Of a stretch of DNA of 32,514 nt, positions 1-31,751 are shown one piece after another. The DNA comes from a virus. Below the pieces are notes generated by a model. The model was not told the DNA's origin and made no database searches. It saw only the letters and a list, made by a program, of their open reading frames with translations. The translations under genes were made by a program, and so were the position numbers. Where the stretch lies: the IMG/VR virus record IMGVR_UViG_3300021959_000211, positions 1 to 32,514 of that record; one strand, given 5' to 3'. Positions within the stretch are counted from its first letter, which is position 1. Each line of letters starts with the position of its first letter.

Positions 1-116
1 TCATAGGGTTCGGAAGCATCAGGAACCCAATACTTCCGACCCTGTTCTGTCGTTACTGATTCGATTTCATACGGCTGAAACCGCTCTTCATGTATAAAGT
101 TAGGTGTATATCCCAT
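1..116 (-). CDS. Partial phage protein, possible PD-(D/E)XK exonuclease N-terminus
   Basis: This is the N-terminal 38 codons of a gene that continues beyond the left edge. It starts at an ATG at 116 and overlaps the end of phoH by 17 bases in another frame. The visible part contains GRKYWVPDASEPY. I recall that phage nucleases of the RecB/PD-(D/E)XK type often begin with a Tyr-rich segment leading to a 'YPSVTT' motif, and the PY at the edge would fit, but the catalytic part is outside the window. The reading frame is well supported; the function is only a suggestion. Confidence 0.5.
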   Translation of the reverse strand, partial: MGYTPNFIHEERFQPYEIESVTTEQGRKYWVPDASEPY

Positions 117-855
117 GTTCTAATTTGGCAATGATGTAGTCCTTAACCAATTTGGACCTCACAATGTCATCCTCTTCGAATTGTATTGAACTAAAACCAC
201 GTATCGATCGTATCACTCTCATAAAGTCAATCAGACCCTTCTTCTCAGAATCCTTTTCTAAGTCACTCTGGCGGAAGTCTCCAGCAAAGATAATGCGACA
301 ATCCTGACCTATTCGTGTGACGATACTGTCCAACTCATGGAAAGTCAGATTCTGACACTCATCAACAAGCACAATAGCATTATTGAGAGTGATTCCACGT
401 ATGAATGAAGTCGATATGAAATCCACCATACCACGTCCCTTAAGATACTCATAGGCGTCTCCTCGACCAAAAAGTTCTGTGAATATTGAATAATAAGGTG
501 CTTCATAAGCCTTCTGTTTTTCCTTTTGACTACCTGGTAGAAACCCCATATCACGAGTGGGAACTACCGATCTGACAATGACTAACTTATGCTTATCTGT
601 CTGATGAGAAAGAATTTCTTTAATGGCAAGATATGACGAGATGAATGTCTTACCAGTACCAGCTACACCCTGCAAGAGAAGGTGTTTTCCGCTCTGATAC
701 TCATCAAAGAGACGGACCTGGTTATGTGTTTTAGGTTCGATGTGTTTGAGTTTCAAACTTGTTTGAACGTTTTTCTGTTTTGCCTTTCGTTGTTTCCTTG
801 TAATTCTCTCATCAAAAAAATCTACGTTTTCGTTAAGATAAGCAATATTTGACAT
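100..855 (-). CDS. phoH: PhoH-like P-loop ATPase
   Basis: This is a PhoH-family ATPase of 251 residues, a protein common in marine phages. The Walker A motif GVAGTGKT lies near residues 63-70 and Walker B with the following Gln (IVLVDECQN) near 161-169. The family is predicted to bind ATP and possibly RNA; its role in phages is unsettled, and its link to phosphate stress varies between hosts. I chose the ATG at 855 because AGAAAGG lies just upstream; a longer frame would need a TTG at 894 and would overlap the upstream gene. The gene follows the small protein at 878-1198 and overlaps the partial gene at the window edge. Confidence 0.93.
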   Translation of the reverse strand: MSNIAYLNENVDFFDERITRKQRKAKQKNVQTSLKLKHIEPKTHNQVRLFDEYQSGKHLLLQGVAGTGKTFISSYLAIKEILSHQTDKHKLVIVRSVVPTRDMGFLPGSQKEKQKAYEAPYYSIFTELFGRGDAYEYLKGRGMVDFISTSFIRGITLNNAIVLVDECQNLTFHELDSIVTRIGQDCRIIFAGDFRQSDLEKDSEKKGLIDFMRVIRSIRGFSSIQFEEDDIVRSKLVKDYIIAKLEHGIYT

Positions 856-877
856 GAATAACCTTTCTGGGTTATCA

Positions 878-1198
878 TCATTTATTAGGGTCAACAGACC
901 GCTTAGCCCTCCATTTTTCTACGGCTTGTCGGGTCTTTACGGCCTTGCTAGACTTATCACCATATTGGTTGGCGACCGCACTGGTAGGATGAGCCTCAGC
1001 GATGCGAGACATCTGCTCATTGAACCCACCATCATTCTTCAGACCAGTATAGCGCTGGCCATGAATGATGTTCATGCGGTCAGGTGGAAGTTGTCGAATA
1101 TTTGGATTATCGGAAAGAAATGCCTCACGCTCTGACATAGACATCAGTTCTTCGAACTGTACTCCAGTACTCTCATCAATAAAGTTATATATCGGCAT
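878..1198 (-). CDS. Small conserved phage protein with FmdB-like N-terminus
   Basis: A 106-residue protein that begins MPIYNFIDESTGVQFEELMS. This start resembles the N-terminal strand of FmdB/zinc-ribbon regulators (MP.Y.F....G..FE), but the paired cysteines of the zinc ribbon are absent. Its C-terminal part (about 65-106) has an AEAHPTSAVANQYG motif and a basic tail, a pattern I remember from small proteins of T4-like marine phages. A strong ribosome site, GGAGG, precedes the ATG at 1198. A late-type promoter motif lies 18 bases further upstream. No function is assigned. Confidence 0.85.
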   Translation of the reverse strand: MPIYNFIDESTGVQFEELMSMSEREAFLSDNPNIRQLPPDRMNIIHGQRYTGLKNDGGFNEQMSRIAEAHPTSAVANQYGDKSSKAVKTRQAVEKWRAKRSVDPNK

Positions 1199-6613: not shown

Positions 6614-6855
6614 AGCATCACTGGCTGTACATCAATTACAGAATCAATTCGGAATGAACGCCATCCCTCTTTTTCAAGATCCCAGACTGGTAGAACAGAT
6701 TCATTAACCTTTCGTTCCTTATCTGAGGATTCAGTTTCTGGTACGAGATCAGACTTGAGAGTGCAACGCATCTCACGGATAGTACCATCGACCTTTGTAA
6801 AACGAATATTACACACTCCACCCAGCAGAGTGGTTTTCAGTTCATCCCGATTCAT
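6610..6855 (-). CDS. Sm-like SH3 beta-barrel (WYL_2/DUF2693-like) phage protein
   Basis: An 81-residue protein with the pattern G.CNIRFTKVDGTIREMRCTL near 13-33 and VPVWDLEKEGWRSFRIDSV near 55-74. This is the layout I associate with the phage SH3-barrel family formerly called DUF2693 (PF10902), found widely in T4-like phages and usually annotated only by fold. Both ends overlap neighbours by ATGA, so it is the middle cistron of a three-gene unit with the GT4 enzyme. Confidence 0.85.
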   Translation of the reverse strand: MNRDELKTTLLGGVCNIRFTKVDGTIREMRCTLKSDLVPETESSDKERKVNESVLPVWDLEKEGWRSFRIDSVIDVQPVML

Positions 6856-7148
6856 ACCTTAATCTCCGTAATACCTGAATCCTTCATCCGATACTTGTTG
6901 CCTGGCTTACCCCAAACCTGAGTAGCAGGAATACGAATGAATCGCTTATTTGTTTCATTTTGATTTGGGTTTGCGACAGTCAGGACAACATTCTTGCCCT
7001 TCTCCCAAGCCTCGAGTTGGTTGAGAGTACGAGCAAGATCATTTGCAAGGTAATCCTTTCGGATTGCATTCTGAATCTTTTTGTTCGAATTAGGACGCTC
7101 GCCCTTAGAAGTGTAATGCTTGCCGGAAGACTTTTTTCCACGTGCCAT
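6852..7148 (-). CDS. Conserved basic phage protein
   Basis: A 98-residue protein beginning MARGKKSSGKHYTSKGERPN, strongly basic at its N-terminus. The C-terminal half has VVLTVANPNQNETNKRFIRI, a pattern I recall in T4-like marine phages. I placed the start at the ATG at 7148 because GGAG lies six bases before it; a GTG at 7160 overlaps that ribosome site. It heads a three-gene overlapping unit and has a sigma70-like promoter upstream (7178-7206). Function unknown, nucleic-acid binding plausible. Confidence 0.8.
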   Translation of the reverse strand: MARGKKSSGKHYTSKGERPNSNKKIQNAIRKDYLANDLARTLNQLEAWEKGKNVVLTVANPNQNETNKRFIRIPATQVWGKPGNKYRMKDSGITEIKV

Positions 7149-7177
7149 AATTAACTCCACATTGAAATAATAAACTT

Positions 7178-7206
7178 ATACTACTATATATTATCCGAAA
7201 TGTCAA
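7178..7206 (-). promoter_or_regulatory. Sigma70-like promoter
   Basis: On the minus strand TTGACA (7206-7201), a 17-base spacer and TAGTAT (7183-7178) precede the three-gene unit ending with the GT4 glycosyltransferase. The -35 overlaps the last codons of the transporter gene upstream. Confidence 0.55.
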
Positions 7207-8162
7207 TAGCCATTTGGAATAATAATATAGTGAATCATTAATACGAGTCCCACACTTGCACCGAGGCCAATCATCATCTTCATAAAGTCACGAGTTACGA
7301 GTGGGAATACTTGTTTCATTTTAGTATTGTGAACGGTGGCAATAGCAAGCTCACGACCAGATAGAAGACCGACAAAGACCCAGGTCGTCGACATTGGAAT
7401 TGAATTGAGTTCCTTGAAGAAATAAAGAATGAGAAAATATGCAAAGTCGATAAAACAGGCCGAACGAATATATCGAGTTGTTGATTTTTCTAATACGATA
7501 TTTTGAATCTTACCGCCTCGTTCCTTAAACATCCAGGCAAGACCACCGACAAAGATAATACTGATAACGATCATCATATCCCATGGAACCTGTCGAGGCA
7601 GAAATACTGCAATATTTGCCATATCATGGCTCAGCCAAGTCCACCACAGTAGACCAGTTGTACCCCACTGAGCCACTCGCCAGTAAGGACGTGACCAATG
7701 GTCGCCGATCGGTTTCTTCTCGTCGATGACTCGGCTGATAATATGCCATAGAGCATAGGCTGCAATTGCCGCAACTGCATAACCCATGATAGATTTCATG
7801 AGCATTTTTTCAAGAACAAAAGTCGAGGCAAAAACGGATAGAACAAGGAAGGAGGTAGATACAGGAACACCAACACGTGTTAATACAAGCAGTATTGCCG
7901 GTGCAGCTGCATGATACCACTGTATTTCTTGAAATGGTATCTTAGTCAATCGACCATACGATATATCGCCACCATGAGTAAACCAACCAAACCACAGTGC
8001 CCATAATAAAACCGCTGATGCAGCGGCCCAAAGAATCTTATAATTAAAGCGTTCATTATTAGATGCAATCCAGGTACCGAGTGTCTGTACTGAATCGTTT
8101 GCAATAACTGAATAGGCGGCAAGCAAAAACCCGATAGCCATCCAAAGTGTGAGTTGGTCCAT
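7203..8162 (-). CDS. PHO4/PiT-like phosphate permease
   Basis: A 319-residue polytopic membrane protein with about eight to ten hydrophobic segments. It shows the internally repeated PiT signature: VIANDSVQTLGT near residues 19-30 and a diverged second copy HDMANIAVFL at 178-187. The paired motifs PVSTS (99-103) and PMSTT (255-259) also fit the family, which imports inorganic phosphate with Na+ or H+. It is shorter than cellular PiT proteins (about 400-500 residues). I chose the ATG at 8162, eight bases after GGAG, over a GTG at 8171. In a phage it could raise phosphate supply during infection, in line with the PhoH gene. Family match is by eye. Confidence 0.7.
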   Translation of the reverse strand: MDQLTLWMAIGFLLAAYSVIANDSVQTLGTWIASNNERFNYKILWAAASAVLLWALWFGWFTHGGDISYGRLTKIPFQEIQWYHAAAPAILLVLTRVGVPVSTSFLVLSVFASTFVLEKMLMKSIMGYAVAAIAAYALWHIISRVIDEKKPIGDHWSRPYWRVAQWGTTGLLWWTWLSHDMANIAVFLPRQVPWDMMIVISIIFVGGLAWMFKERGGKIQNIVLEKSTTRYIRSACFIDFAYFLILYFFKELNSIPMSTTWVFVGLLSGRELAIATVHNTKMKQVFPLVTRDFMKMMIGLGASVGLVLMIHYIIIPNGY

Positions 8163-8178
8163 GTGTGTCACTCCTTAC

Positions 8179-8214: not shown

Positions 8215-8373
8215 TTAATCAATCAGGAGAAGATGTGAGGTTTTCTGCTGTGCCTCTTGTAGATCACAGGCAAACTCTCGTGATACCATACGGATAAATT
8301 CTTCCATATTTGGATTGTCGTTTTCTTGACGGAATGCTTGCCACATCCATTCGATTCTTGATTCGTCGTTCAT
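8215..8373 (-). CDS. Small acidic phage protein
   Basis: A 52-residue protein (MNDESRIEWMWQAFRQEN at the start) predicted to be all helical with no catalytic motif. The ATG at 8373 shares its last base with the stop codon of the nucleotidyltransferase-cupin gene (TAATG) and GAGAGG is upstream; a longer frame from 8403 lies inside that gene and is less likely. Family unknown. Confidence 0.65.
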   Translation of the reverse strand: MNDESRIEWMWQAFRQENDNPNMEEFIRMVSREFACDLQEAQQKTSHLLLID

Positions 8374-9143
8374 TATAGCCTCTCTATATCTGCTTCGATG
8401 CAATTATCGCCATATTGAATTTCGATAATTTTAACTAGTTCATTTGTCTTGTTACAGAGTTGATGCCACTGGTTTTTCTTAATATGGATAGACTGATGCT
8501 TCTCGAGCGTATCCAACAATTCAAGATCTGACGACGCATCAATTGTATACACGGTGGCAGTACCTTCGGATACGAACCAGTGTTCGGCTCGATCCTTATG
8601 CCGTTGCATACTGAGAGATGATCCTGGATTCACAACCAGTTCCTTCAGCTTCACCTCTGGGCTGTTTGATTGTAGCACCTTATAATAACCCCAAGAACGA
8701 TCGGTTCGTGGAGTCGACCATTCATTCAGAATCCAACTCGAGGAGTTCTTTTTAAAGTTACCGCCAACACCGTACATAAAACTAACAGTCGTGTCGTGCT
8801 TATAGAAATCTTCTTCTGGTGAGTTCAAAGCATCTCTATCGCCACCATTTGCAAAAACAACATCGCCGGCGCCGATGGATTGAGCATAGAAAATAGCTCC
8901 AGTTGCATTATCCTTTTGATCATCACCTATTACAGGAATAACTCGATCCACTACCTTGAGGTTACGAATAATCTCAACTCGTTCTTGATACGACATGAAT
9001 GGTTGCCCTTTCTTTCGAGTCAACCAGTCGTCCGAGTTCAATCCAACCCAAAGCCTGTCACCGAGTTTACGAGCTTCATTAAAATACAAAATATGACCAG
9101 AGTGTAAGGGATCGAAGCCACCAGTTACTATCACTGTTTTCAT
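8373..9143 (-). CDS. Nucleotidyltransferase-cupin fusion, sugar-nucleotide type
   Basis: A 256-residue two-domain protein. Residues 1-145 form a cytidylyltransferase-like domain with the HxGH-type motif GGFDPLHSGHI (8-18), like the adenylyl- or cytidylyltransferases RfaE2/HldE, TagD and PanC. The usual C-terminal ISSTxI motif is replaced by something like NSSSWIL. Residues about 155-256 form a cupin resembling the mannose-6-phosphate isomerase type II domain (RHKDRAEHWFVSEGTATV, then KKNQWHQLCN). It probably activates a sugar or polyol phosphate with a nucleotide and binds or reshapes the product. Its ATG overlaps the upstream stop (ATGA). Confidence 0.85.
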   Translation of the reverse strand: MKTVIVTGGFDPLHSGHILYFNEARKLGDRLWVGLNSDDWLTRKKGQPFMSYQERVEIIRNLKVVDRVIPVIGDDQKDNATGAIFYAQSIGAGDVVFANGGDRDALNSPEEDFYKHDTTVSFMYGVGGNFKKNSSSWILNEWSTPRTDRSWGYYKVLQSNSPEVKLKELVVNPGSSLSMQRHKDRAEHWFVSEGTATVYTIDASSDLELLDTLEKHQSIHIKKNQWHQLCNKTNELVKIIEIQYGDNCIEADIERL

Positions 9144-9600: not shown

Positions 9601-10092
9601 TTATTCAATCTCAACCAGCTTGTATCGCTTGCCGTTCTCAACCAGCTTGTATCGCTTGCCGTTCATTTCAATGAACTTATCTTCCTTAACATCGTCTCCG
9701 GGCCAAGCAGTGTCAGAGACACAAGCATCACCAGAGACCCTCGCCTTGCCAGAGATCAGAGCACGGCCACAGACCCGAGCATTGCCAGCGACCTCAGCAT
9801 TGCCACAGACCCAAGCATCGTCATAGACCCAAGCATTGTCAAAGACCAGAGCATTGCTATAAACCCGAGCATTGTCAAAGACCTCAGCATTGCCATAGAC
9901 CTGAGCATTACCAAAGACCCGAGCATTGCCAGCGATCCGAGCATCACCATATACCCGAGCATTGCCAGCGACCCGAGCATCAGGACCAACATAAGCTGTA
10001 TCTGTTACTGTGGCTGTATCCGCTACCCAGCCACCTCCGTTGGGATGGTTATGACCCGGAACCGGACCGAATCCAAAATCAAAAGTAGTCAT
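9601..10092 (-). CDS. Hexapeptide-repeat left-handed beta-helix protein
   Basis: A 163-residue protein. From about residue 23 to 128 it is made of hexapeptide repeats of the type A-x-V-x-G-N (VYGDARIAGNARVFGNAQVY...), which fold as a left-handed beta-helix. Acyltransferases of this fold carry catalytic His residues in loops; none is visible here, so a structural or binding role is more likely than catalysis. The N-terminus (1-22) is Gly/Pro/His-rich (GPVPGHNHPNGGG). The C-terminus ends with a duplicated NGKRYKLVE encoded by a 27-base tandem repeat. Repeats in the DNA have an 18-base period, and the neighbours are small genes of unknown function. Confidence 0.85.
   Translation of the reverse strand: MTTFDFGFGPVPGHNHPNGGGWVADTATVTDTAYVGPDARVAGNARVYGDARIAGNARVFGNAQVYGNAEVFDNARVYSNALVFDNAWVYDDAWVCGNAEVAGNARVCGRALISGKARVSGDACVSDTAWPGDDVKEDKFIEMNGKRYKLVENGKRYKLVEIE
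9611..9664. repeat. 27-base tandem direct repeat, two copies
   Basis: Two exact, adjacent 27-base copies (9611-9637 and 9638-9664) lie at the 3' end of the hexapeptide-repeat gene. The unit is nine codons, so the frame is kept and the tail GKRYKLVE-N is doubled. Exact identity points to a recent slippage duplication. Confidence 0.9.
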
Positions 10093-14235: not shown

Positions 14236-14730
14236 ATGACTGTATATGTTGATATGGATGGTGTGATTGCCGACTTCTTCACAGAGTTGGCTCGCACCCA
14301 TGGTGTGAAACACTGGAAGGATATTCCAAACAAGGAAGAATCCATTATGGCTCTGGGAGGTACCGATTTCTTTGGTCGTCTCCCAAAGTTTCCCACATCA
14401 GATGAGCTGATTCGATTCGTCGATGATGCCACAGATGGCGAATGGTGTATCCTTTCAGCTCCTCTTCGTGGTGATTACGATAACTCATCCATGTGGAAAC
14501 GGGTTTGGTTGGATAAGAATAACTACTATCCATCTGAAGCCATCTTCACCAGTGGCAAGCAAAAATATGCGACTGAAAACGGTCAGCCGAACATTCTGAT
14601 TGATGACAAGCCAGAGAACATTGATGCTTGGATCAAGAATGGTGGTATCGGCATCCGTTATCAGGCTACTGAAGATTCTCTTGAATCTTTGAAAGAGAAG
14701 ATCGAGAGTGCACTAGCCCTAACGGACTAG
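14236..14730 (+). CDS. HAD-family 5'(3')-deoxyribonucleotidase-like protein
   Basis: A 164-residue protein of the HAD superfamily. Motif I DMDGVIADF (residues 6-14) with both aspartates is intact; motif II is the Ser in CILSAPLR; the KQKYATENG Lys and LIDDKPENI (motif IV, two aspartates) follow. The layout is that of the NT5C-type 5'(3')-deoxyribonucleotidases of phages, which dephosphorylate dNMPs. I chose the ATG at 14236, which follows AAGGA. It is the only plus-strand gene among minus-strand genes, has its own strong early promoter, and overlaps the 3' end of the next gene tail to tail by 65 bases. Confidence 0.85.
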   Translation: MTVYVDMDGVIADFFTELARTHGVKHWKDIPNKEESIMALGGTDFFGRLPKFPTSDELIRFVDDATDGEWCILSAPLRGDYDNSSMWKRVWLDKNNYYPSEAIFTSGKQKYATENGQPNILIDDKPENIDAWIKNGGIGIRYQATEDSLESLKEKIESALALTD

Positions 14731-15934
14731 TTCTCGTATCACCATAGTGATATACCGTCAGATTATCTCTATCATTTCCAGTACATGAGCGCCATGGGTC
14801 CACTACAATGGATCCTGGTGCGAATGGATACTTATCAAAATGTTTTGGCCAACCCAATAGATATGCAGTTGGTTTAATTTCCGGTGGTGCTACATTACCA
14901 TAAATCCCATTCGACATCTGTTCCTTGTCATATGTGACGCTGTAACCGAGTTTCTCGAGATAATATCCAACAAGGATAGATGGTGAACCAGCCAACTGAT
15001 CCACACCAGGCTTAAATCCACATCCTAGGATAACGCACGGCATATCCTTTGGTACACCGACCTTCTCAAAATGTTTTGCAATGTTATTAGCTTGTTCCTC
15101 ACGAGCCTTCATAATTGCATCGAACAGATCATATCCAAAACCATGGCGTTCAGCAAATGATCGTAGGGCAATATTATCACGGGGATGGCAACCACCACCA
15201 TCACCAAGTCCAGCTGTCATATACTTTGGACCCATAATCCGATCCGTCGAATGCTTGAGAGCATCGGTAACTTTATCTACGTTCATATTACCCACAGCCA
15301 TTGCCGCATCCTGAATCATGTTGACGAGACAGAGTTTAGCAGTGATAAAGGTGTTGTAGAAGATCTTCATCGACTCGGCTTCTTCCCAAGTACCGATTTC
15401 GACTCTCGTCTCCTTTTCAAGCATGGGCTGATAAAAATCAGCGAGAAGTTTTGCATCACCAGTCGTTGAACCATCCTCGGTCCCGATCATAATCATTTCT
15501 GGGTTTTTCATATCCCATTTAACTGTACCTTGCGCAATAAGATATGGATTATAAATGAATCGACCTCTGGTGACGATAGGAGCGATCTCTCGTCGTACAG
15601 TACCAGGCAACATAGTACTAATCATGACAATGAGTGTACCCTCGTCAACGTACTGATCGACTTGAGTTGTAGCCTGGATTGCAATACTGTAGTCAAAATC
15701 CTTAGGCGGTAAATGGGACGTAGCATATCGCCCATCATAATCTGGATGATGAGCCGTTGGTACAGCAATAAAAACTATATCTTTACCACGAACTGCATCT
15801 GCAAGATTATATTCCATCTTAATAGTGGTGTCTGAGATTGGACGAACATCGTATCCAGTAACATCATAGTGTTCGCCAAGTACCTCAGCGGCATCCTTAC
15901 CGAGTTTGCCGACACCTACAAAACCAACTTTCAT
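14666..15934 (-). CDS. UDP-glucose/GDP-mannose dehydrogenase family protein
   Basis: A 422-residue nucleotide-sugar 6-dehydrogenase. The N-terminal NAD motif GVGKLG (7-12) is followed by STMLPGT (106-112). The central domain has EEAESMKIFYNTF (184-196), and the catalytic Cys249 lies in DGGGCHPRD. The C-terminal UDP-binding domain holds ILGCGFKPGVDQLAGSPS. Family members oxidise UDP-glucose, UDP-GlcNAc/ManNAc or GDP-mannose to uronic acids; the usual GGxCxPKD Lys is Arg here. It stands at the end of the glycan cluster and overlaps the nucleotidase gene. Confidence 0.9.
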   Translation of the reverse strand: MKVGFVGVGKLGKDAAEVLGEHYDVTGYDVRPISDTTIKMEYNLADAVRGKDIVFIAVPTAHHPDYDGRYATSHLPPKDFDYSIAIQATTQVDQYVDEGTLIVMISTMLPGTVRREIAPIVTRGRFIYNPYLIAQGTVKWDMKNPEMIMIGTEDGSTTGDAKLLADFYQPMLEKETRVEIGTWEEAESMKIFYNTFITAKLCLVNMIQDAAMAVGNMNVDKVTDALKHSTDRIMGPKYMTAGLGDGGGCHPRDNIALRSFAERHGFGYDLFDAIMKAREEQANNIAKHFEKVGVPKDMPCVILGCGFKPGVDQLAGSPSILVGYYLEKLGYSVTYDKEQMSNGIYGNVAPPEIKPTAYLLGWPKHFDKYPFAPGSIVVDPWRSCTGNDRDNLTVYHYGDTRTSPLGLVHSRSSLSKIQENLQ

Positions 15935-15935
15935 T

Positions 15936-16559
15936 TTAAAATCCCCATGCTAATAAGTTACCTTTATCATTGACCTCCTGCCAATTTTGTTTAAAGGCAC
16001 CTAGGTCGGTTGAAAATGAGCAGTCATTGAAACCTGCCCTCTTGAATTTATCTTTCCACCAATCAATATCCTCACGAATATAATGAGACTGATCCATCTC
16101 ATATGCTGGTATAATGTATTTACCATTTTTACCAAGAGGTATGATAGCAAAGATATACTTGCATCTCTCTCTGAGAATCTCCATTTGTCTATCAAGACTG
16201 TCATATGGAATGTGCTCTAGAATATCCTTTGCCAATAGATAATCACTATATATAAAATCGTTTGAATACGGCTCAATAGCTTTGACTGATCCATTGATCT
16301 CTTTCGGTGCTTGACTGATTGCATATTTGGAAATATCTACGCCGTGAGCCTGAACACCAAGTAGTTTTAATGCATAAACGAGATAACCTTTAGCACAGCC
16401 AAAATCCATAACAGTATCACCAGGCTGAATATCAAGAAATCTGACAACGTGATGAGCCAATGGAATGGTAAGCTCCGGAATCCAACGATAGTTCTGATAC
16501 AATGATTTTCCACTTTGCGGACCACTTTCGTAATAACTTTTATCAAAGAAATCATTCAT
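15936..16559 (-). CDS. Class I SAM-dependent methyltransferase
   Basis: A 207-residue methyltransferase with SAM motif I MDFGCAKGYL (51-60), motif II-like HGVDISKYA (about 72-80) and a post-motif LAKDILEHIP (about 108-117). This form is common in glycan clusters, where it methylates sugars or sugar-linked groups. TAATG links it with the radical SAM gene upstream. The acceptor cannot be told. Confidence 0.88.
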   Translation of the reverse strand: MNDFFDKSYYESGPQSGKSLYQNYRWIPELTIPLAHHVVRFLDIQPGDTVMDFGCAKGYLVYALKLLGVQAHGVDISKYAISQAPKEINGSVKAIEPYSNDFIYSDYLLAKDILEHIPYDSLDRQMEILRERCKYIFAIIPLGKNGKYIIPAYEMDQSHYIREDIDWWKDKFKRAGFNDCSFSTDLGAFKQNWQEVNDKGNLLAWGF

Positions 16560-17899
16560 TAAACAAACTCTTCATGCATCAATGGCTTATCAAATTCCCC
16601 AATTCGATTCACTTTACCATTTACCCAATCATCAAGCATATTTACATTTTCTGTAAATACACAACCTGTACATCTATCACGTGCATTAAATTTTTGTTCG
16701 ATCTCATTATCAATAAAACCTAAAATATCAGATGCATGACAGAGCTGATATTCCTCGGCAAAGTGTTGATATCCATCATTCAGTACGACTGAGTCACAGG
16801 GATACACGGTTCCGGGTTTACCAGTTTCCTTATGAATTTCCTCGGATAGATATGGGCGAAAGTGAGCCTGATGGCATTTGCTTGATTGTGGTGCGCCATG
16901 GATCTTATACTGATGAAAGAAACGTGGATCGTTCAGTTCCTTTAGCGTATTATCTAACGAATGATGCTGACGAATAAGATCATATTGCGACAGCAAACAG
17001 TTTGGCAATAGACGGATGTACTTTGCTCCACAACGATCAGCAACCATAGATGCTTTGTTGAGTAGAGCAATACGATCGGTCATAATCTCGTCAGACTCCT
17101 CGTGTTCCACCGTATATACCATAGAACATCCAACAATCGTCTTGTCGTGGTCGATCTTATCCTGTGGTAGGCCGATAGTGTATTCCCACCCAGTAAAGAT
17201 ATTGATTGACACTCGGATCCACGAGAACAACTTCCAAACATCGTCATCGACTCGACGTGTTAGCGTTCCATTTGTAATGAGAGCAACAGAGAGATCCTGC
17301 TCCTTCAACCACCGTACAAGTTCATTGAAGTACTTGTATGCGGTTGGTTCACCACCACCTGTAAGAATAACTGCCTTTAGTCCGCGTGATTTAAGTTTGA
17401 GCACATAATCCCGAATGGTTTCCATATCAAGGCGGCTATGTGTATCGCGATATGTAACGGAGCAATACGGGCACTTAAGGTTACAGGTGCCCTCGGGTGA
17501 GATATGAGTTGAGATAACAGTATTAGGTCCACCTGATCTATAGTTAATCATCTGTTCGGCATGACGCCAAAACTTAATACCGGTCGAGGTATACTTATGT
17601 TCCTCCTCGCTCTTTTCTGGTATTACAAATTCTGCCGTTGTTTTATTTTTATAGAAGATAAAAACGTTTGAATAATTTTCACCATCTTCGATGCGATCAA
17701 GAATCTTATTTCCATATTCGAGATCAAGTGGAATTAACTTCGATACGTTATTATTATCGAGCAATTCATAATTTGAAATTCTATTATTGATTTTTCCTCT
17801 GGCTGCATATCGGTGAATTGTGTAATGACCATCAGTCTCTACCAAACTCACAACGCCTGCATCACCAGGTATGTTAATTTCTCGAATCACTTCACCCAT
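16559..17899 (-). CDS. Radical SAM protein with SPASM-like C-terminus
   Basis: A 446-residue protein. The [4Fe-4S] motif C-x3-C-x2-C is Cys139, Cys143, Cys146 (GTCNLKCPYCS), followed by the SAM-binding LTGGGEPTAY. Residues 1-110 are a separate N-terminal domain of unknown type. After the barrel, cysteines in YPCDSVV, YQLCHAS and DRCTGCVF form a SPASM-like auxiliary cluster set. SPASM enzymes modify peptides, but some act on sugars, and this one lies among glycosyltransferases. GGAG precedes the ATG; both ends overlap neighbours. Confidence 0.9.
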   Translation of the reverse strand: MGEVIREINIPGDAGVVSLVETDGHYTIHRYAARGKINNRISNYELLDNNNVSKLIPLDLEYGNKILDRIEDGENYSNVFIFYKNKTTAEFVIPEKSEEEHKYTSTGIKFWRHAEQMINYRSGGPNTVISTHISPEGTCNLKCPYCSVTYRDTHSRLDMETIRDYVLKLKSRGLKAVILTGGGEPTAYKYFNELVRWLKEQDLSVALITNGTLTRRVDDDVWKLFSWIRVSINIFTGWEYTIGLPQDKIDHDKTIVGCSMVYTVEHEESDEIMTDRIALLNKASMVADRCGAKYIRLLPNCLLSQYDLIRQHHSLDNTLKELNDPRFFHQYKIHGAPQSSKCHQAHFRPYLSEEIHKETGKPGTVYPCDSVVLNDGYQHFAEEYQLCHASDILGFIDNEIEQKFNARDRCTGCVFTENVNMLDDWVNGKVNRIGEFDKPLMHEEFV

Positions 17900-18710
17900 G
17901 ATGTAACTCCATTTGGTTCTTCATTTCAATTGGCATATTATATATATCCGCCTTCGGTATAAGGTGTTTCCACCTTTCTGAAATTTCTATATCAGCTGTG
18001 TCAGGCGTCCAGTTCAACCACTTATCTCTGTACCATTCCTGTGATGGAATGGAATCACCTATTGCAGCCGAAAAGTTAATAGCAGTCAGATGTTTGTATA
18101 GCATTGTCTTTGCATTAAGACAGAACCCAAAGTTATAGTTCTGAATATAGCTGCTAACGATCTGATGTTGTGGATGCCATGTACCAAAGTGAGTTGTAAA
18201 GTTTGGTATACGCTTTGGATTCCAAATCATAGGACCGATGCGATCGCGTTGTGGTACTCGCCAGTTGCAGTCCTTCCACAACTCAATTTGAGTGGTACCA
18301 AGACAAGGTATATCTTTTCTCTTGTCAAGTTCATCAAAGAGTGAATTGACCAAAGGTTTATAGAATACCATATCCGGTTCCATAAACAGCACAGACTCAG
18401 GTTGATACCCCATCTTATTTACACAGATATCGTAGTACATTCTGAATTGATTAGCAGGAGTGGTAACCTCATGTCTGAAATAGTCAATCTTTTGCTTTGC
18501 CTTATAGTTATCATACATGAACTGAAATACGTCCTCGTGTAAACAAGGCATTGGGACTTCAGACCCAAGATAGTTTACGGTATCCTTCACTACCCAAGGA
18601 TTGATTGAATAGATGACAAAGATCTTATCGACTGAGTTTTTAATGGAATCAATTGATTGCTTTAAAAAGTCAATGCCATAATGAATACGATAGATTGCCC
18701 ACCTTTTCAT
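17892..18710 (-). CDS. GT-A-type glycosyltransferase-like protein
   Basis: A 272-residue protein with an N-terminal VDKIFVIYS strand and the segment SVLFMEPDMVFYKPL (about 125-139), where EPDM stands where GT-A enzymes have their DxD metal site. A later HPQHQIVSSYIQNYNFGF follows. No signal peptide or membrane segment. It is probably a sugar transferase using a nucleotide sugar; the family cannot be fixed. The end overlaps the radical SAM gene by 8 bases. Confidence 0.75.
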   Translation of the reverse strand: MKRWAIYRIHYGIDFLKQSIDSIKNSVDKIFVIYSINPWVVKDTVNYLGSEVPMPCLHEDVFQFMYDNYKAKQKIDYFRHEVTTPANQFRMYYDICVNKMGYQPESVLFMEPDMVFYKPLVNSLFDELDKRKDIPCLGTTQIELWKDCNWRVPQRDRIGPMIWNPKRIPNFTTHFGTWHPQHQIVSSYIQNYNFGFCLNAKTMLYKHLTAINFSAAIGDSIPSQEWYRDKWLNWTPDTADIEISERWKHLIPKADIYNMPIEMKNQMELHHG

Positions 18711-18712
18711 AA

Positions 18713-19438
18713 TTAATATCTTTCGTTTGGTCCATCCATCATCTGCAAGAGGGTAAGAGCCGCTTTTGCTCTTTCTTCAGCTGATTGTTCGAAGATTACT
18801 TTATCGAGTTCATAAAGGTTACCACGTTCTGTAGTTCTGTTACGTTGAGTGGTTTCATCGGCGCCAGATTTACCAGTGGTAAAATGTAGATGCTCATTTA
18901 CGACGTTTGGAATAAAGTGAGTCCGACCAATTCTTTTTGCGATGTCGAAGGTCCACGTGTCGTTGTAACCAAAATTGAAAATCCCTGGCGCAAAGTAGCC
19001 CAGTGTCTCGTACCACACACGCGATACGATTGGAAAGGCGCAGTGATTCGAGCCATTGATTAAATCTTCGAACCACATGCAATAGATATGATCTGGAAAT
19101 TTCTCTATCTCCTTATCAAGTAAAAGATCCCAATCCTGAGTACGATAGAGCATGTCATCATTACCCATAATTAAAACATCGGCACCATCATCAATAGCCT
19201 TCTGTGCAATGACATTCCAGGATTTGGAGACTGATTGTGGCTCACCAATGCAATTGATATTATTTACAGGTTGTTTACGCTGATACTCTTCATAAGCCTT
19301 AATACGAGGATCATCTGAATCAATATAGTTATATGTAAAGACTCGACCCTTATCATTTGCAAGACCATGAACTGACTGAATAAAACTATCAAGTCGACCT
19401 GGTCTCTGACGACTTGGTGTTAAGATTGCAAATTTCAT
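18713..19438 (-). CDS. GT2-like glycosyltransferase
   Basis: A 241-residue protein starting MKFAILTPSRQRPGRLDSFI, the N-terminal strand and loop of GT-A/GT2 enzymes. The metal motif is in ADVLIMGNDDML (near 87-98). A C-terminal FNFGYNDTWTFDIAKRIG corresponds to the acceptor-side ED-like region. Start at 19438 overlaps the upstream stop (ATGA). Part of the run of three transferase-like genes. Confidence 0.82.
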   Translation of the reverse strand: MKFAILTPSRQRPGRLDSFIQSVHGLANDKGRVFTYNYIDSDDPRIKAYEEYQRKQPVNNINCIGEPQSVSKSWNVIAQKAIDDGADVLIMGNDDMLYRTQDWDLLLDKEIEKFPDHIYCMWFEDLINGSNHCAFPIVSRVWYETLGYFAPGIFNFGYNDTWTFDIAKRIGRTHFIPNVVNEHLHFTTGKSGADETTQRNRTTERGNLYELDKVIFEQSAEERAKAALTLLQMMDGPNERY

Positions 19439-20154
19439 AGTTTCCAATAATCTCCTATCCAAGGATTCGCAACGAATTCAACTCCCCACGGAAATGTTGA
19501 TTCCGGGCCAATTGCCTCGTGTGGCCGTGGTGTGCCATGGAAGCAAATAATCGCAGTCTCATCATCTAAACCAGTTTCATATATTTGATACTTATAAGAC
19601 TTTAACTTACCTGGCCAGGTGTGTTGAAATAGGTGTATTGGTAAAGCCAGTTGTCGGAAAATATCATGTAGCAGTTCACCATCACCACGGATTTTATGTA
19701 GAATTTCTTCCTGCCTATCCACAAAAATATCGTAAATAAAATGAGCCCAATCCCTATCCCATGCCATTACACCCGATTGGAAAACATTATGGTATTGAGT
19801 TCCATCTTCAAATCTATTATTTACTCCAAGATTTTCAATGCCCATAAATTCGCCTTCATCCCAATTTAGAAAGAAGTCGATGTTACCAGTGATTACTGTA
19901 TCAAGATCGAGATAAACAACTCGTTTATCAAGTACATTATTATATGTATGGTGCTTTGAAAAAAGATAGAGTTTATTCCACCATCCGTTCAGACCTTCGG
20001 GTAGTGGATATGTGTCAATGCCATCAATCGGCGTATCAGTAAAAGCCTTGAAGTTAAATGGTGCAGTGGTATTTCTCTCTACCATTGCCTTCAAAATACG
20101 AACATAATCATCCGAGTACTCAGTTCCCCACTTAACACACACGACATCAACCAC
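19435..20154 (-). CDS. GT8-like glycosyltransferase
   Basis: A 239-residue GT-A protein with the metal-binding motif VVYLDLDTVITGN (Asp83 and Asp85), preceded by WNKLYLFSK. A C-terminal CFHGTPRPHE carries the His-Gly pair seen in GT8 and related retaining enzymes. The start is a GTG: the one at 20154 has AGGTGG six bases before it; another at 20163 is possible. It overlaps the cupin gene by 8 bases. Substrate unknown. Confidence 0.82.
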   Translation of the reverse strand: MVDVVCVKWGTEYSDDYVRILKAMVERNTTAPFNFKAFTDTPIDGIDTYPLPEGLNGWWNKLYLFSKHHTYNNVLDKRVVYLDLDTVITGNIDFFLNWDEGEFMGIENLGVNNRFEDGTQYHNVFQSGVMAWDRDWAHFIYDIFVDRQEEILHKIRGDGELLHDIFRQLALPIHLFQHTWPGKLKSYKYQIYETGLDDETAIICFHGTPRPHEAIGPESTFPWGVEFVANPWIGDYWKL

Positions 20155-20497
20155 GAGTACCACCTACCGTTTTACGTACAATGTCTTCAGAAATTTCATT
20201 CAAATAGTAGACCTCAAGAGCCTGGGCTGGCACGTCGTCAGTCTTGAACATATGATACTCATTCGGAGCTACGGATGTGAATTGACCCTGAAAGAGAGTC
20301 GTTGTATCTACAAGATCGTAGTCGTTCTTATGTACCTCGATATGGAGCTTACCCTTGATCACATAGAACATATTATATTTAAACTCATGTTTATGTAACG
20401 AGCATTGTGATCTTGGATTAATATCGATTCGATGAACTTCGATCATTGAAGTTACCAATAGAGATTCAGTCGTTCCCCAAATTTTTCCTTGCTTCAT
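20147..20497 (-). CDS. Single-domain cupin
   Basis: A 116-residue cupin with the metal-binding motif 1 region CSLHKHEFKYNMFYVIKG (about 33-50; His35, His37) and motif 2 APNEYHMF (about 77-84). It resembles the C-terminal cupin of the nucleotidyltransferase fusion at 8373-9143 and MPI type II proteins. In a glycan cluster it may be a sugar isomerase or epimerase. It heads the minus-strand run of sugar genes. Confidence 0.83.
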   Translation of the reverse strand: MKQGKIWGTTESLLVTSMIEVHRIDINPRSQCSLHKHEFKYNMFYVIKGKLHIEVHKNDYDLVDTTTLFQGQFTSVAPNEYHMFKTDDVPAQALEVYYLNEISEDIVRKTVGGTRG

Positions 20498-28428: not shown

Positions 28429-28957
28429 ACACGAAGCCAGAGCATGGGAAATGGCAATGAAGACTGTCCGTTACTATTATGACGGATGGGATTTATTCAA
28501 GGCAAGTATTTTCGGGTTTGTATTTGGTCTTATTATAGGATTCTTATTCGGCATGAGTGTGGCATATGCATCAGAACTCAGGCATAGTTATAAATCCCCA
28601 GCTTTTAATGGGCAGGGATTCAGCTCGCATGTATTAACTATTGAGAATTTAACATTTCAAAGACAGAAAGATATTGACGCAAAGATAGAGTCTGTTAGGC
28701 GGGAAGCTGAACGAGAGGCAAAGAACACCAACGTCAATAAGTTTTTGGCCAATCTTGAATCACGAATTTATGCTGAGTTAAGTAAACAGATTTCAGAGAA
28801 GTTATTTGGAGAAGATCCACAAACATCGGGTACACTTGAACTTCTTGGTAATACTATTCAGTATGAGATGACTGATGAGAACGTCAAACTTGTTGTCAAT
28901 CAAGCTGACGGATCAACTACAATAGTGGATATTCCAATCGCATCATTTGCATTCTAG
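28418..28957 (+). CDS. csgF: CsgF-like curli assembly protein
   Basis: A 179-residue exported protein. After a long basic N-region, residues 30-49 form a hydrophobic signal ending AYA, so the mature form would begin SELRHSYKSPAFNGQGFSSH. In CsgF the mature N-terminus (FR.P.FGG) inserts into the CsgG pore; SPAFNGQGF occupies that place. A helical LESRIYAELSKQISEKLF and beta-rich C-terminus (IQYEMTDENVKLVV, DGSTTIVDIP) match the CsgF domain order. ATG at 28418 follows AGGAAG. The helical insert at about 83-105 is longer than in E. coli CsgF. Immediately followed by csgG, as in curli operons. Confidence 0.85.
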   Translation: MKSEHEARAWEMAMKTVRYYYDGWDLFKASIFGFVFGLIIGFLFGMSVAYASELRHSYKSPAFNGQGFSSHVLTIENLTFQRQKDIDAKIESVRREAEREAKNTNVNKFLANLESRIYAELSKQISEKLFGEDPQTSGTLELLGNTIQYEMTDENVKLVVNQADGSTTIVDIPIASFAF

Positions 28958-28964
28958 GATTCTC

Positions 28965-29765
28965 ATGATTAGATTTGTAATGATATGTTCTCTGGTTTTG
29001 TTGACAGGGTGTCAAACTATGATGGATTCGACCATTCGTAGAGATCCAGAAATTGCCGAAACGCCGATGAAGAGAGTTCTTAAAGAATTTCCTCCTATCG
29101 CAAATGGCAAACTAGTGACAATAGCGGTTTATAATTTCAGCGATAAAACTGGTCAGAGAAAACCAGCTGACAACATCGCAAATTTGAGTAGTGCAGTCAC
29201 ACAAGGAGCGGAGATCTATTTAATTAAGGCATTAATGGATTTAAGTGATGGTAAATTCTTTCAGGTTGTTGAGAGATCCGGACTTGATGCTTTAATTAAA
29301 GAGAGACAGTTAATTCGTAACACACGTGAAAATTTTGATGGAGATAAAGCAAAGAAGCTGGGTTCTCTTCAGTTTGCTGGTATTATGATCGAAGGTGGGA
29401 TTGTAGGATATGATTCGAACAAATATACTGGCGGTGTCGGTGTACGATGGTTGGGGATCGGTCCACAAACTGAATGGAGAGTTGATGTTGTTACAGTGGG
29501 TATCAGAGCAGTGAGTGTACTCACAGGAAAAGTGTTAATGGCAATCACTACTGAAAAGACAATCTTAAGCACAAATGTGGGTGTGAATGTATTTAAGTTC
29601 TTTGATATGGGAACAAAAGTTTTAGAAATAGAAGCAGGCACTTCAACAAACGAGCCAGTCAACTATGCAGTGAGACAGGCTATAGAAGCAGCTGTGATCG
29701 AAATGGTTAAAGAAGGAAAACAAAAGAAGTACTGGGATTATAAGGACAGAGCAAATGCAAAATAA
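28965..29765 (+). CDS. csgG: CsgG-like outer-membrane secretion pore
   Basis: A 266-residue lipoprotein with Cys16 in VLLTGCQ. Segments match E. coli CsgG in order: VYNFSDKTGQRKP (56-67; E. coli VYNIQDETGQFKP), NLSSAVTQGA (73-82), VVERSGLDALIKERQLIR (101-118), IMIEGGIVGYDSN (140-152), GGVGVRWLGIG (156-166), TILS (199-202) and TSTNEPV (226-232). The family forms a nonameric pore that secretes curli subunits. The constriction residues Tyr51 and Phe56 of E. coli are not kept (Asn73-Leu74 stands at Asn55-Phe56). Start at 28965 has AGGA five bases upstream. Identification is strong; the secreted substrate is inferred from the genes that follow. Confidence 0.95.
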   Translation: MIRFVMICSLVLLTGCQTMMDSTIRRDPEIAETPMKRVLKEFPPIANGKLVTIAVYNFSDKTGQRKPADNIANLSSAVTQGAEIYLIKALMDLSDGKFFQVVERSGLDALIKERQLIRNTRENFDGDKAKKLGSLQFAGIMIEGGIVGYDSNKYTGGVGVRWLGIGPQTEWRVDVVTVGIRAVSVLTGKVLMAITTEKTILSTNVGVNVFKFFDMGTKVLEIEAGTSTNEPVNYAVRQAIEAAVIEMVKEGKQKKYWDYKDRANAK

Positions 29766-30453
29766 ATTGGCAATTCCGCTCATTGCATTCTTGACTTTTA
29801 CGAGTTCTGCTTTTGCAGACAACGAGATTTATATAGACCAAACTGGGTCAAGCGCAACAATTAATATTAACCAGGACGGTACAGGAAACCGTGTTGGCGC
29901 AAGTGGTGATGTAAGCACGAGCGATGGCTCATCAACAACCATGGACATCGATCAGGTAGGTGCGAGTAACGTACTTGATTACGATGTTTATGGTGCAAAT
30001 GCTAATATCACTTCAAACACACAAGGTAGTAGTTCTGATATTGGAATCAATGTTGGTACTACTAGTGGATCAAATGGTGGTTCTGACGACGTTGATGTAA
30101 CAATCAATAATACTGGTGATACGAATACAGTTGATGTGAATGTTGGCACAACCGCAAGCGGTGTTGATGATGTAGATGTAGATGTTGATATTACTGGAGA
30201 TTCGAATACAGTAACAGTAAATGAAAACTCAACCGCGGCAAGCGTCACCGATAAACTTACAGATATTGATATTACTGGGGACAGTAACACAGTATCAGCA
30301 ACTAAGAGTGGTGCTGCCCAGCATGATACTACAATCAACCATACTGGTAGCAGTTCAACGATTAGTGTCACACAGAGTGGAGCAGAAGCAAGTACAGTGA
30401 GTGCAACAACCAATGGTTCTTCGTCTAGCATTACTATTACTGTTACTGACTAA
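29755..30453 (+). CDS. Curlin-like amyloid repeat protein, major subunit candidate
   Basis: A 232-residue exported protein: signal peptide to AFA at residue 21, then no Cys or Trp, few charges except Asp, and high Ser, Thr, Gly, Asn and Asp. Short G-x-x-[NSAT]-x-[IVLM] units recur with glycines at 31, 58, 69, 80, 91, 121, 148, 175, 198 and 221, many spaced 11 or 23-30 residues apart, and several follow Gln-x (QTG, QVG, TQG), as in curlin (Q-x-G-x-N). The beta-solenoid or amyloid fold is inferred. It overlaps csgG by 11 bases, so it is probably the secreted substrate. Not clearly CsgA or CsgB. Confidence 0.8.
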   Translation: MQNKLAIPLIAFLTFTSSAFADNEIYIDQTGSSATININQDGTGNRVGASGDVSTSDGSSTTMDIDQVGASNVLDYDVYGANANITSNTQGSSSDIGINVGTTSGSNGGSDDVDVTINNTGDTNTVDVNVGTTASGVDDVDVDVDITGDSNTVTVNENSTAASVTDKLTDIDITGDSNTVSATKSGAAQHDTTINHTGSSSTISVTQSGAEASTVSATTNGSSSSITITVTD

Positions 30454-31462
30454 CACTGCATATGCAGGGGTCGGTAAGGTAGAACAAAATACAGGTACTG
30501 CAGAACTTCTGAGAAGCAAGGATAAAATTGCTGTCAAGGAAGATCTCGGTATTGAAATGAATGATGATGTTCGCACCGGCAACGGTGTGGTCCGCATTGG
30601 ATTTGATGATAAAACAAAGGTAAAGATTGAGAAGCACTCTAAATTAGTAATTGATGATTTCGTGTATGATGCGAGTAAACCTTCAGCAAGTAAGTTAGGA
30701 TTGAAGGTTACTCTTGGCACGGTGAAGTATGCAAGTGGTTTAATTGCAAAGAACAACAGACAAGCGGTAGCAATTAGTACTCCTACAGCTCGTATTGGTG
30801 TTCTTGGTACGGCATTTAGTATGACGGTAGATGAGGTTGGAAAGTCACTAGTCATCCTCCTACCAAATATGGATGGTACTGTAGGTGAAATTTCAGTAGA
30901 ATCTGAGGTCGGTCAAGTAATCTTAAATCAGGCTTATCAAGCAACCGTAGTTGGTGCAGCAGAGTCAGCCCCCACACCCCCAGTGATTTTAGATTTATCG
31001 GAAGCTCAGATTAATAACTTACTGATTATCCGCAAGCCAAAAGAAAAAGATGAAGAAACTGTTTCAGACGAAAATATATTAGATTTCAACGAGCTTGATG
31101 TAAACTTATTGGATGAAAATGAACTCGATAAAGATGAACTTGTTTTTACAAGATTAGATTTTAGTCTTCTTGATCTTGACTTGCTTGCAAATGTCCTTGA
31201 TATTCTTAATTCCAAGATATTTTCGGAAACCGAAAGATTCCCAACCAATCCTATTCAACCAGGTGTGTATGAAGAAGGAAATACTCAAATTGTAAATGAC
31301 GGGGAACTGATTATTTTTAGAAACTTCGATAATCGTGTGGTGTCAATTACATTAGATCAAGACTCACAAACTCAAATGCAACTCAATCAGGCTGGTAGTG
31401 ATGTTATTCTCTATACTCAAGAAAACGCTTCCGATTCTGTTATTATTATCAATCAGAACTGA
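30413..31462 (+). CDS. Secreted FecR-domain protein with curlin-like C-terminus
   Basis: A 349-residue protein. Signal peptide to AYA at 18; residues 20-185 carry a FecR-type domain (GVVRIGFDDKTKVKIE, then ISTPTARIGVLGTAFSMTVD at 121-140); residues about 222-266 are an Asp/Leu-rich linker (ILDFNELDVNLLDENELDKD); residues 305-349 look like curlin repeats (DQDSQTQMQLNQAG, ILYTQENASDSVIIINQN). FecR domains occur in secreted beta-helical proteins of bacteria and marine phages. It may nucleate or anchor the fibre, like CsgB. The ATG at 30413 lies inside the previous gene; no clear ribosome site. Confidence 0.82.
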   Translation: MVLRLALLLLLLTNTAYAGVGKVEQNTGTAELLRSKDKIAVKEDLGIEMNDDVRTGNGVVRIGFDDKTKVKIEKHSKLVIDDFVYDASKPSASKLGLKVTLGTVKYASGLIAKNNRQAVAISTPTARIGVLGTAFSMTVDEVGKSLVILLPNMDGTVGEISVESEVGQVILNQAYQATVVGAAESAPTPPVILDLSEAQINNLLIIRKPKEKDEETVSDENILDFNELDVNLLDENELDKDELVFTRLDFSLLDLDLLANVLDILNSKIFSETERFPTNPIQPGVYEEGNTQIVNDGELIIFRNFDNRVVSITLDQDSQTQMQLNQAGSDVILYTQENASDSVIIINQN

Positions 31463-31751
31463 AGCAATTGCTGATAGTGCTATTTTAGATTTGACTGGTA
31501 GTAACTTAATTGTATCGGTAACTCAATACGGTGGCGATCAATCCCTGGACATGACTCTGAGTGGTAACAGCCACGATGTTAATGTTATGCAGAAGAACAT
31601 GGGTTCTCACACTGCCACAATAAATCTCACAAATGGTGGCGGCGCATATGAGTTAGATCTTTTACAGGATAGCACTACTGATCAAACAGTCACAGTAAGT
31701 GGAACCTGTTCTACCACAGCTGGTTGTCCTATTTCCATTACACAACAATAA
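31401..31751 (+). CDS. Second curlin-like secreted protein
   Basis: A 116-residue protein whose signal peptide ends near AIA at residue 24; a Leu run LPILLLL lies at 10-16. The mature part has curlin-like units LTGSNLIVSVTQYGG, LSGNSHDVNVMQKNMGS, and ends ISITQQ. Unlike the first curlin-like protein it has two Cys (near 103 and 109), which could form a disulphide. Its first 62 bases are inside the FecR gene in another frame. It might be the minor, nucleating subunit. No strong ribosome site; a GTG at 31398 is an alternative start. Confidence 0.75.
   Translation: MLFSILKKTLPILLLLSIRTEAIADSAILDLTGSNLIVSVTQYGGDQSLDMTLSGNSHDVNVMQKNMGSHTATINLTNGGGAYELDLLQDSTTDQTVTVSGTCSTTAGCPISITQQ

Follow-up and report, generated by a model that had tools for sequence, protein, structure and literature searches.

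PiT transporters and their viral members

Large parts of the ocean are limited by phosphorus, of which phage DNA contains a great deal; the phosphate genes known from phages are mainly pstS and phoH. Transporters of the PiT family carry two signatures of 12 residues each with the core GANDVANA, each including a critical aspartate (D28 and D506 in human PiT2), and transport by human PiT2 requires D28, E55, S113, H502, D506, E575, and S593.PMC3126765 The histidine of the second signature (human H502) is retained in 55 of 60 bacterial members.PMC3126765

Virus-borne transporters of the PHO4 superfamily are established for eukaryotic algal viruses (OtV-2, OlV-1, BpV-1, and EhV-86), as the preliminary description of the present locus had stated, but these are PF01384 members that group with eukaryotic algae and occur in different viruses.PMC3429862 Closer to our case, Monier et al. 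(2012) reported one phage-derived marine pho4 ORF on a Sanger clone (JF837193), which was placed near the alphaproteobacterium HIMB59; it is, however, a single 1.1-kb clone on an unsupported branch, and the proportion of viruses carrying pho4 was given as unknown.PMC3429862 The clone likely belongs to the subfamily described below. Another phage PiT is encoded in LR756501, an unannotated 735-kb record of an uncultured huge phage (L210:2962-4639), where a canonical PiT of 328 residues is followed by a DUF47-like protein; this PiT differs from ours by its ordinary PitA-like signature, FINGFHDSANSIAT, and by that partner. With one clone and one canonical PiT on record, phage pho4 is thus not unheard of. 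We found no later account of the subfamily in phages in the literature, many subscription papers lying outside the coverage; new here are how far the subfamily extends, that Pfam does not see it, and the phosphate-related setting in which it occurs.

A divergent PiT subfamily encoded in the window

The window, that is, the whole analyzed stretch of 32,514 nucleotides (IMG/VR record IMGVR_UViG_3300021959_000211), encodes the following gene and motifs:

7203-8162, minus strand: PiT-like transporter gene, 319 residues, ATG at 8162, stop codon ending at 7203
8171-8176, minus strand: Shine-Dalgarno sequence AAGGAG, 8 bases 5' of the ATG
8094-8102, minus strand: AND, codons 21-23, first-repeat signature, N22 and D23 invariant in the alignment
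7854-7865, minus strand: PVST, codons 100-103, first repeat, invariant in the alignment
7614-7628, minus strand: HDMAN, codons 179-183, second-repeat signature, H179, D180, and N183 invariant
7446-7448, minus strand: invariant Asp, codon 239, aligned with the Asp of GFTVDF in TmPiT
7383-7397, minus strand: PMSTT, codons 256-260, second repeat, invariant in the alignment

The coordinates and length first proposed for this ORF were borne out, with the gene lying on the minus strand. A longer version would begin with GTG at 8171; the ATG is favored as start, being preceded by AAGGAG at a distance of 8 bases (bases directly 5' of the ORF: TAAGGAGTGACACACATG). The ORF is not a chance reading frame, given hundreds of homologues, conserved motifs, an identical (100%) protein copy from an independent assembly in IMG/VR, and its mode of evolution: against distinct relatives (82-90% identity), synonymous differences amount to 0.67-0.85 and are near saturation, with non-synonymous differences of 0.06-0.12, and the protein is therefore under strong constraint, that is, strong purifying selection. 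Judged by its sequence, it appears to be a working gene, carried by a marine T4-like phage, for a small membrane protein distantly related to bacterial phosphate importers. The compactness initially regarded as unusual had to be discarded as a sign of novelty, since the ordinary bacterial PiTs fetched for comparison have 328-350 residues.

Taken alone, the window protein finds nothing significant in Pfam, NCBIfam, PDB, or PHROGs; against PF01384 it gives no hmmscan match and 12.7 bits in another search, at a curated cut-off of 33.7 bits. Its relatives score 10-30 bits (e.g., 20 bits for the viral L042), the best being the bacterial L111 with 30.5 bits (E 2.3e-7), and several of these matches align one half of the protein to the opposite half of the model, as is expected for internally duplicated proteins. 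A profile of 26 viral relatives retrieved 6L85 as its only PDB match (E 4.5e-4), and with bacterial relatives added (32 sequences) the same entry, TmPiT, the sodium-dependent phosphate transporter of Thermotoga maritima, was the sole match up to E 10 (E 3.4e-7). Homology to PiT is thus significant both for this profile and for L111 against PF01384. The profile is also collinear with the ordinary PiT of an alphaproteobacterium that holds a subfamily gene as well (E about 1e-6); an hhalign comparison with a PitA-type alignment was weak (35 columns, the first PVST placed on the second) and was set aside. Two AlphaFold models of moderate confidence (mean pLDDT 78 and 79.5) both matched 6L85 in Foldseek with probability 1.00 and TM 0.58-0.64 (next matches ≤0.25), superposing on it with an rmsd of about 8 Å; among the viral structures of BFVD, the predicted model had no significant match. 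The initial proposal of a PiT-like transporter in a phage therefore survived the comparison with PF01384 and with known folds: relatives match PF01384, albeit none above the curated cut-off, and both the profile and the predicted fold point to TmPiT and to nothing else. Together they place the protein in a divergent, unannotated PiT subfamily. We do not file it as an ordinary PF01384 member, because it stays below the cut-off and lacks the histidine, but by homology and predicted fold it most likely works like one.

The likeness to TmPiT is best over a collinear stretch of residues 108-272, and AND, PVST, and the acidic positions are aligned; identity is nevertheless about 15%, TmPiT has 402 residues as compared to 319, and its signatures are of the GANDVAN type as opposed to IANDSVQ and SHDMAN. 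With bacterial PF01384 transporters (E. coli PitA, the GANDAAN-type PiT of L144), whose compact members are similar in length, the subfamily shares the internal duplication and a PVST-type motif in both halves, but it differs by its sub-threshold scores, the replaced C-terminal histidine, and the absence of a DUF47 partner. No DUF47/PitR gene adjoins a subfamily gene; DUF47 occurs only with a separate ordinary PiT in L144 and L159, three genes from the subfamily gene. The doubled motifs noticed at first sight are present, except that the second "AND" reads HD-M-A-N and not AND/ANI. Both pairs (AND...PVST and HDxxN...PMST) are invariant or nearly so among 26-32 aligned relatives and similarly spaced (79 residues from D23 to S102, 78 from D180 to S258). 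Across 32 diverse members, N22, D23, S102, T103, H179, D180, N183, D239, S258, T259, and T260 are invariant, as are E118, E271, R96, R190, and K250.

The critical aspartates of both signatures are kept (D23, D180) within degenerate cores (IANDSVQT, SHDMANIA), and the duplicated PVST-type motif retains its critical serine (human S113 and S593; here S102/T103 and S258/T259). D239 may occupy the place of human E575. In the alignment, the equivalent of H502 is absent and replaced by an invariant Trp176, with a histidine at 179 instead. An acidic residue matching E55 is likewise missing from the subfamily; as this position is Asn in all six PitA-type proteins aligned, E55 is not defining for bacterial members.

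Bacterial neighbors and the probable substrate

On bacterial chromosomes, the neighborhood points to phosphate. A gene for a phosphate-selective porin O/P (PF07396) lies directly downstream in five Alphaproteobacteria (L092, L096, L099, L101, and L120) and divergently upstream in another lineage (L151), which amounts to six bacterial loci in two lineages. In L087, a MAG contig of probable phage origin, a porin O/P-like gene (39 bits; L087:2590-3777) also immediately precedes the PiT-like one; elsewhere in the viral loci, phmmer found none. A response regulator-kinase pair is situated directly upstream in 11 Flavobacteriales loci, which form one conserved block, and in L152/L154, again two lineages (in L115, the kinase alone was picked up); the best models are PhoB and PnpS/PhoR, with scores below the equivalog cut-offs. 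None of 16 tested carrier genomes has a PF01384 match above the cut-off, and a pstA-type permease passes its cut-off in two of the 16 as compared to 13 of 14 control genomes; the carriers are bins and single cells, many of them incomplete, so that gene absence there is weak evidence. The permease was sought with TIGR00974, TIGR00975 (PstS) having been dropped as too narrow (four of 14 controls pass). Pho boxes were found upstream at about chance level (four of 38 viral and two of 73 bacterial loci at p 0.05). Because of the porin, the PhoB/PhoR-like neighbors, and the lack of PF01384 matches above the cut-off in the 16 genomes, phosphate is our best guess for the substrate from genomic context.

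We therefore consider it likely that the gene encodes an ion-coupled importer of inorganic phosphate from a divergent PiT branch taken up by T4-like marine phages. Such a secondary transporter, compact and divergent within the PiT superfamily, would have come from bacterial hosts, probably in more than one event. Its two half-repeats would come together around a central site made up of N22/D23, S102/T103, H179/D180/N183, D239, and S258/T259, which may bind phosphate together with Na+ or H+ and operate by alternating access. Made during infection and inserted into the inner membrane of the host, the protein could provide extra phosphate for phage DNA synthesis. Against this reading stand the unmet PF01384 cut-off, Trp176 in place of H502, the lack of a match to E55 and of a DUF47 partner, a mean pLDDT of 79, the rmsd of about 8 Å, the lack of a Pho box, and the sub-threshold PhoB/PhoR-like matches.

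The same fold could also serve sulfate or another anion; within the PiT family, CysP of B. subtilis carries sulfate, and CysP-type members have about 350 residues. The binding-site neighbors indeed differ from those of ordinary PiTs (W for H, HD for ND), and a putative cysteine-synthase-like ORF lies two genes downstream in a 143-kb phage contig (L190). We nonetheless regard such an importer as unlikely, since the bacterial neighbors are phosphate genes in separate lineages and an unsystematic look noticed no sulfur gene beside the bacterial copies. Less probable still is that the phage protein has the PiT fold but no net transport and acts as a regulator or, by occupying the membrane or blocking a host transporter used as receptor, as an exclusion factor: phages do alter surface proteins and some ordinary PiT residues are lost here, but phage and chromosomal copies carry the same conserved motif set (93 aligned proteins), and the gene is the sole PF01384-like one in most tested bacterial genomes.

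If the phosphate importer is accepted, a whole transporter, widespread and in principle needing no partner proteins of the host, would act more directly than pstS or phoH, and phages may commonly help infected cells to import phosphate by a route so far uncounted. As it falls below the PF01384 cut-off, the subfamily is undercounted when phosphate uptake is surveyed in marine bacteria and viromes; the share of pho4 among viruses left open by Monier et al. (2012) becomes countable with the profile built here. Rather more tentatively, this hidden subfamily might, in many streamlined marine bacteria without a recognized Pst or PiT system, be the principal phosphate importer and, in uncultured marine T4-like phages, rank among the more frequent transporter genes, having been repeatedly exchanged between the two.

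Phage context, distribution, and transfer

The following further genes belong to the same phage:

6852-7160, minus strand: small phage gene downstream, phrog_23239, function unassigned
8373-9143, minus strand: upstream phage gene with a heptose adenylyltransferase-like and a cysteine-dioxygenase/cupin-like domain
100-894, minus strand: phoH-like gene

Window genes match phage families (PhoH-like, exonuclease, ribonucleotide reductase (RNR) large subunit, primase, and CsgG-like protein), and in viral loci with the PiT-like gene PHROGs confirmed genes for major head protein, UvsX-like recombinase, replicative helicase, SbcC-like subunit, clamp loader, single-strand binding protein, and baseplate hub. 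It is thus scarcely credible that the window is a misfiled bacterial fragment, its many metabolic genes and its 32.5-kb size notwithstanding, with RNR, primase, exonuclease, and phoH of phage type and relatives adjoining head, UvsX, SbcC-like endonuclease subunit, clamp loader, and baseplate genes; contamination was rejected on these grounds. At least one T4-type hallmark cluster is present in 41 of 108 viral loci on the piece examined. The phoH gene predicted in the same window was found about 6.3 kb from the PiT-like gene; a tight link is not supported, as phoH occurs in 9 of 27 relatives' records, many of them fragments. The position of the PiT-like gene varies widely among phage loci, as is usual for cargo.

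Uncultured marine phages and bacteria share the subfamily by the hundreds, and standard annotation misses it: it is encoded on at least 597 stretches in IMG/VR and at least 514 in GTDB genomes. The latter belong to marine Alphaproteobacteria, among them SAR11 and Micavibrio-like bins, to Flavobacteriales, and to other groups, and in many cases the gene lies on a long contig of the chromosome; within one bin, L083-L086 are contigs of phages. At the sensitivity used, no match was obtained in 50,697 deposited phage records of INPHARED (tblastn, three family members as queries) or in plasmids. Chromosomal homologues are about 58-67% identical. In a tree of 100 proteins, the virus label has to change at least five times across branches with good support; phages L163/L165, for instance, cluster with bacteria L151/L152 at 99. 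The tree requires several transfers between bacteria and phages, for which a move from host to phage would be the simplest direction. The suspected status as auxiliary metabolic gene accords with phage contigs bearing hallmark neighbors and with homologues on bacterial chromosomes.

A small outer-membrane beta-barrel (Phage_OMP, PF24653) lies directly upstream of the PiT-like gene in L083 (7675-7989, clear) and L184 (7658-7990, below cut-off), and was accordingly rejected as a constant partner; it may match the cyanophage-type ORF adjoining the 2012 clone. Elsewhere in the window, a CsgG homologue (177 bits), a FecR-domain protein, and two curlin-looking repeat proteins (28947-31751, plus strand) resemble the curli-type cluster of pelagimyophages.PMC7029224 The window also encodes a YdcK-type beta-solenoid repeat protein (9604-10092, minus strand) and a block of sugar-nucleotide dehydrogenase, radical SAM, and apparent glycosyltransferase genes (14669-20163, minus strand) that likely serves surface sugars. 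Among phage contigs with the PiT-like gene, inspection by eye indicated a 5-aminolevulinate synthase-like ORF (L047:885-2078 and cluster 21, 11 loci) and, beside or near the gene, a ribose-phosphate pyrophosphokinase-like ORF (L059, L061, L066, L069, L179, and cluster 3, 23 loci). On one phage contig, an ammonium transporter gene (PF00909, 324 bits; L019:1221-2378, plus strand) sits directly between the PiT-like and UvsX genes, a second nutrient transporter in T4-like phages; its relatives occur on 66 IMG/VR contigs, of which 29 show T4-type hallmark genes in the part examined and two also carry the PiT-like gene.
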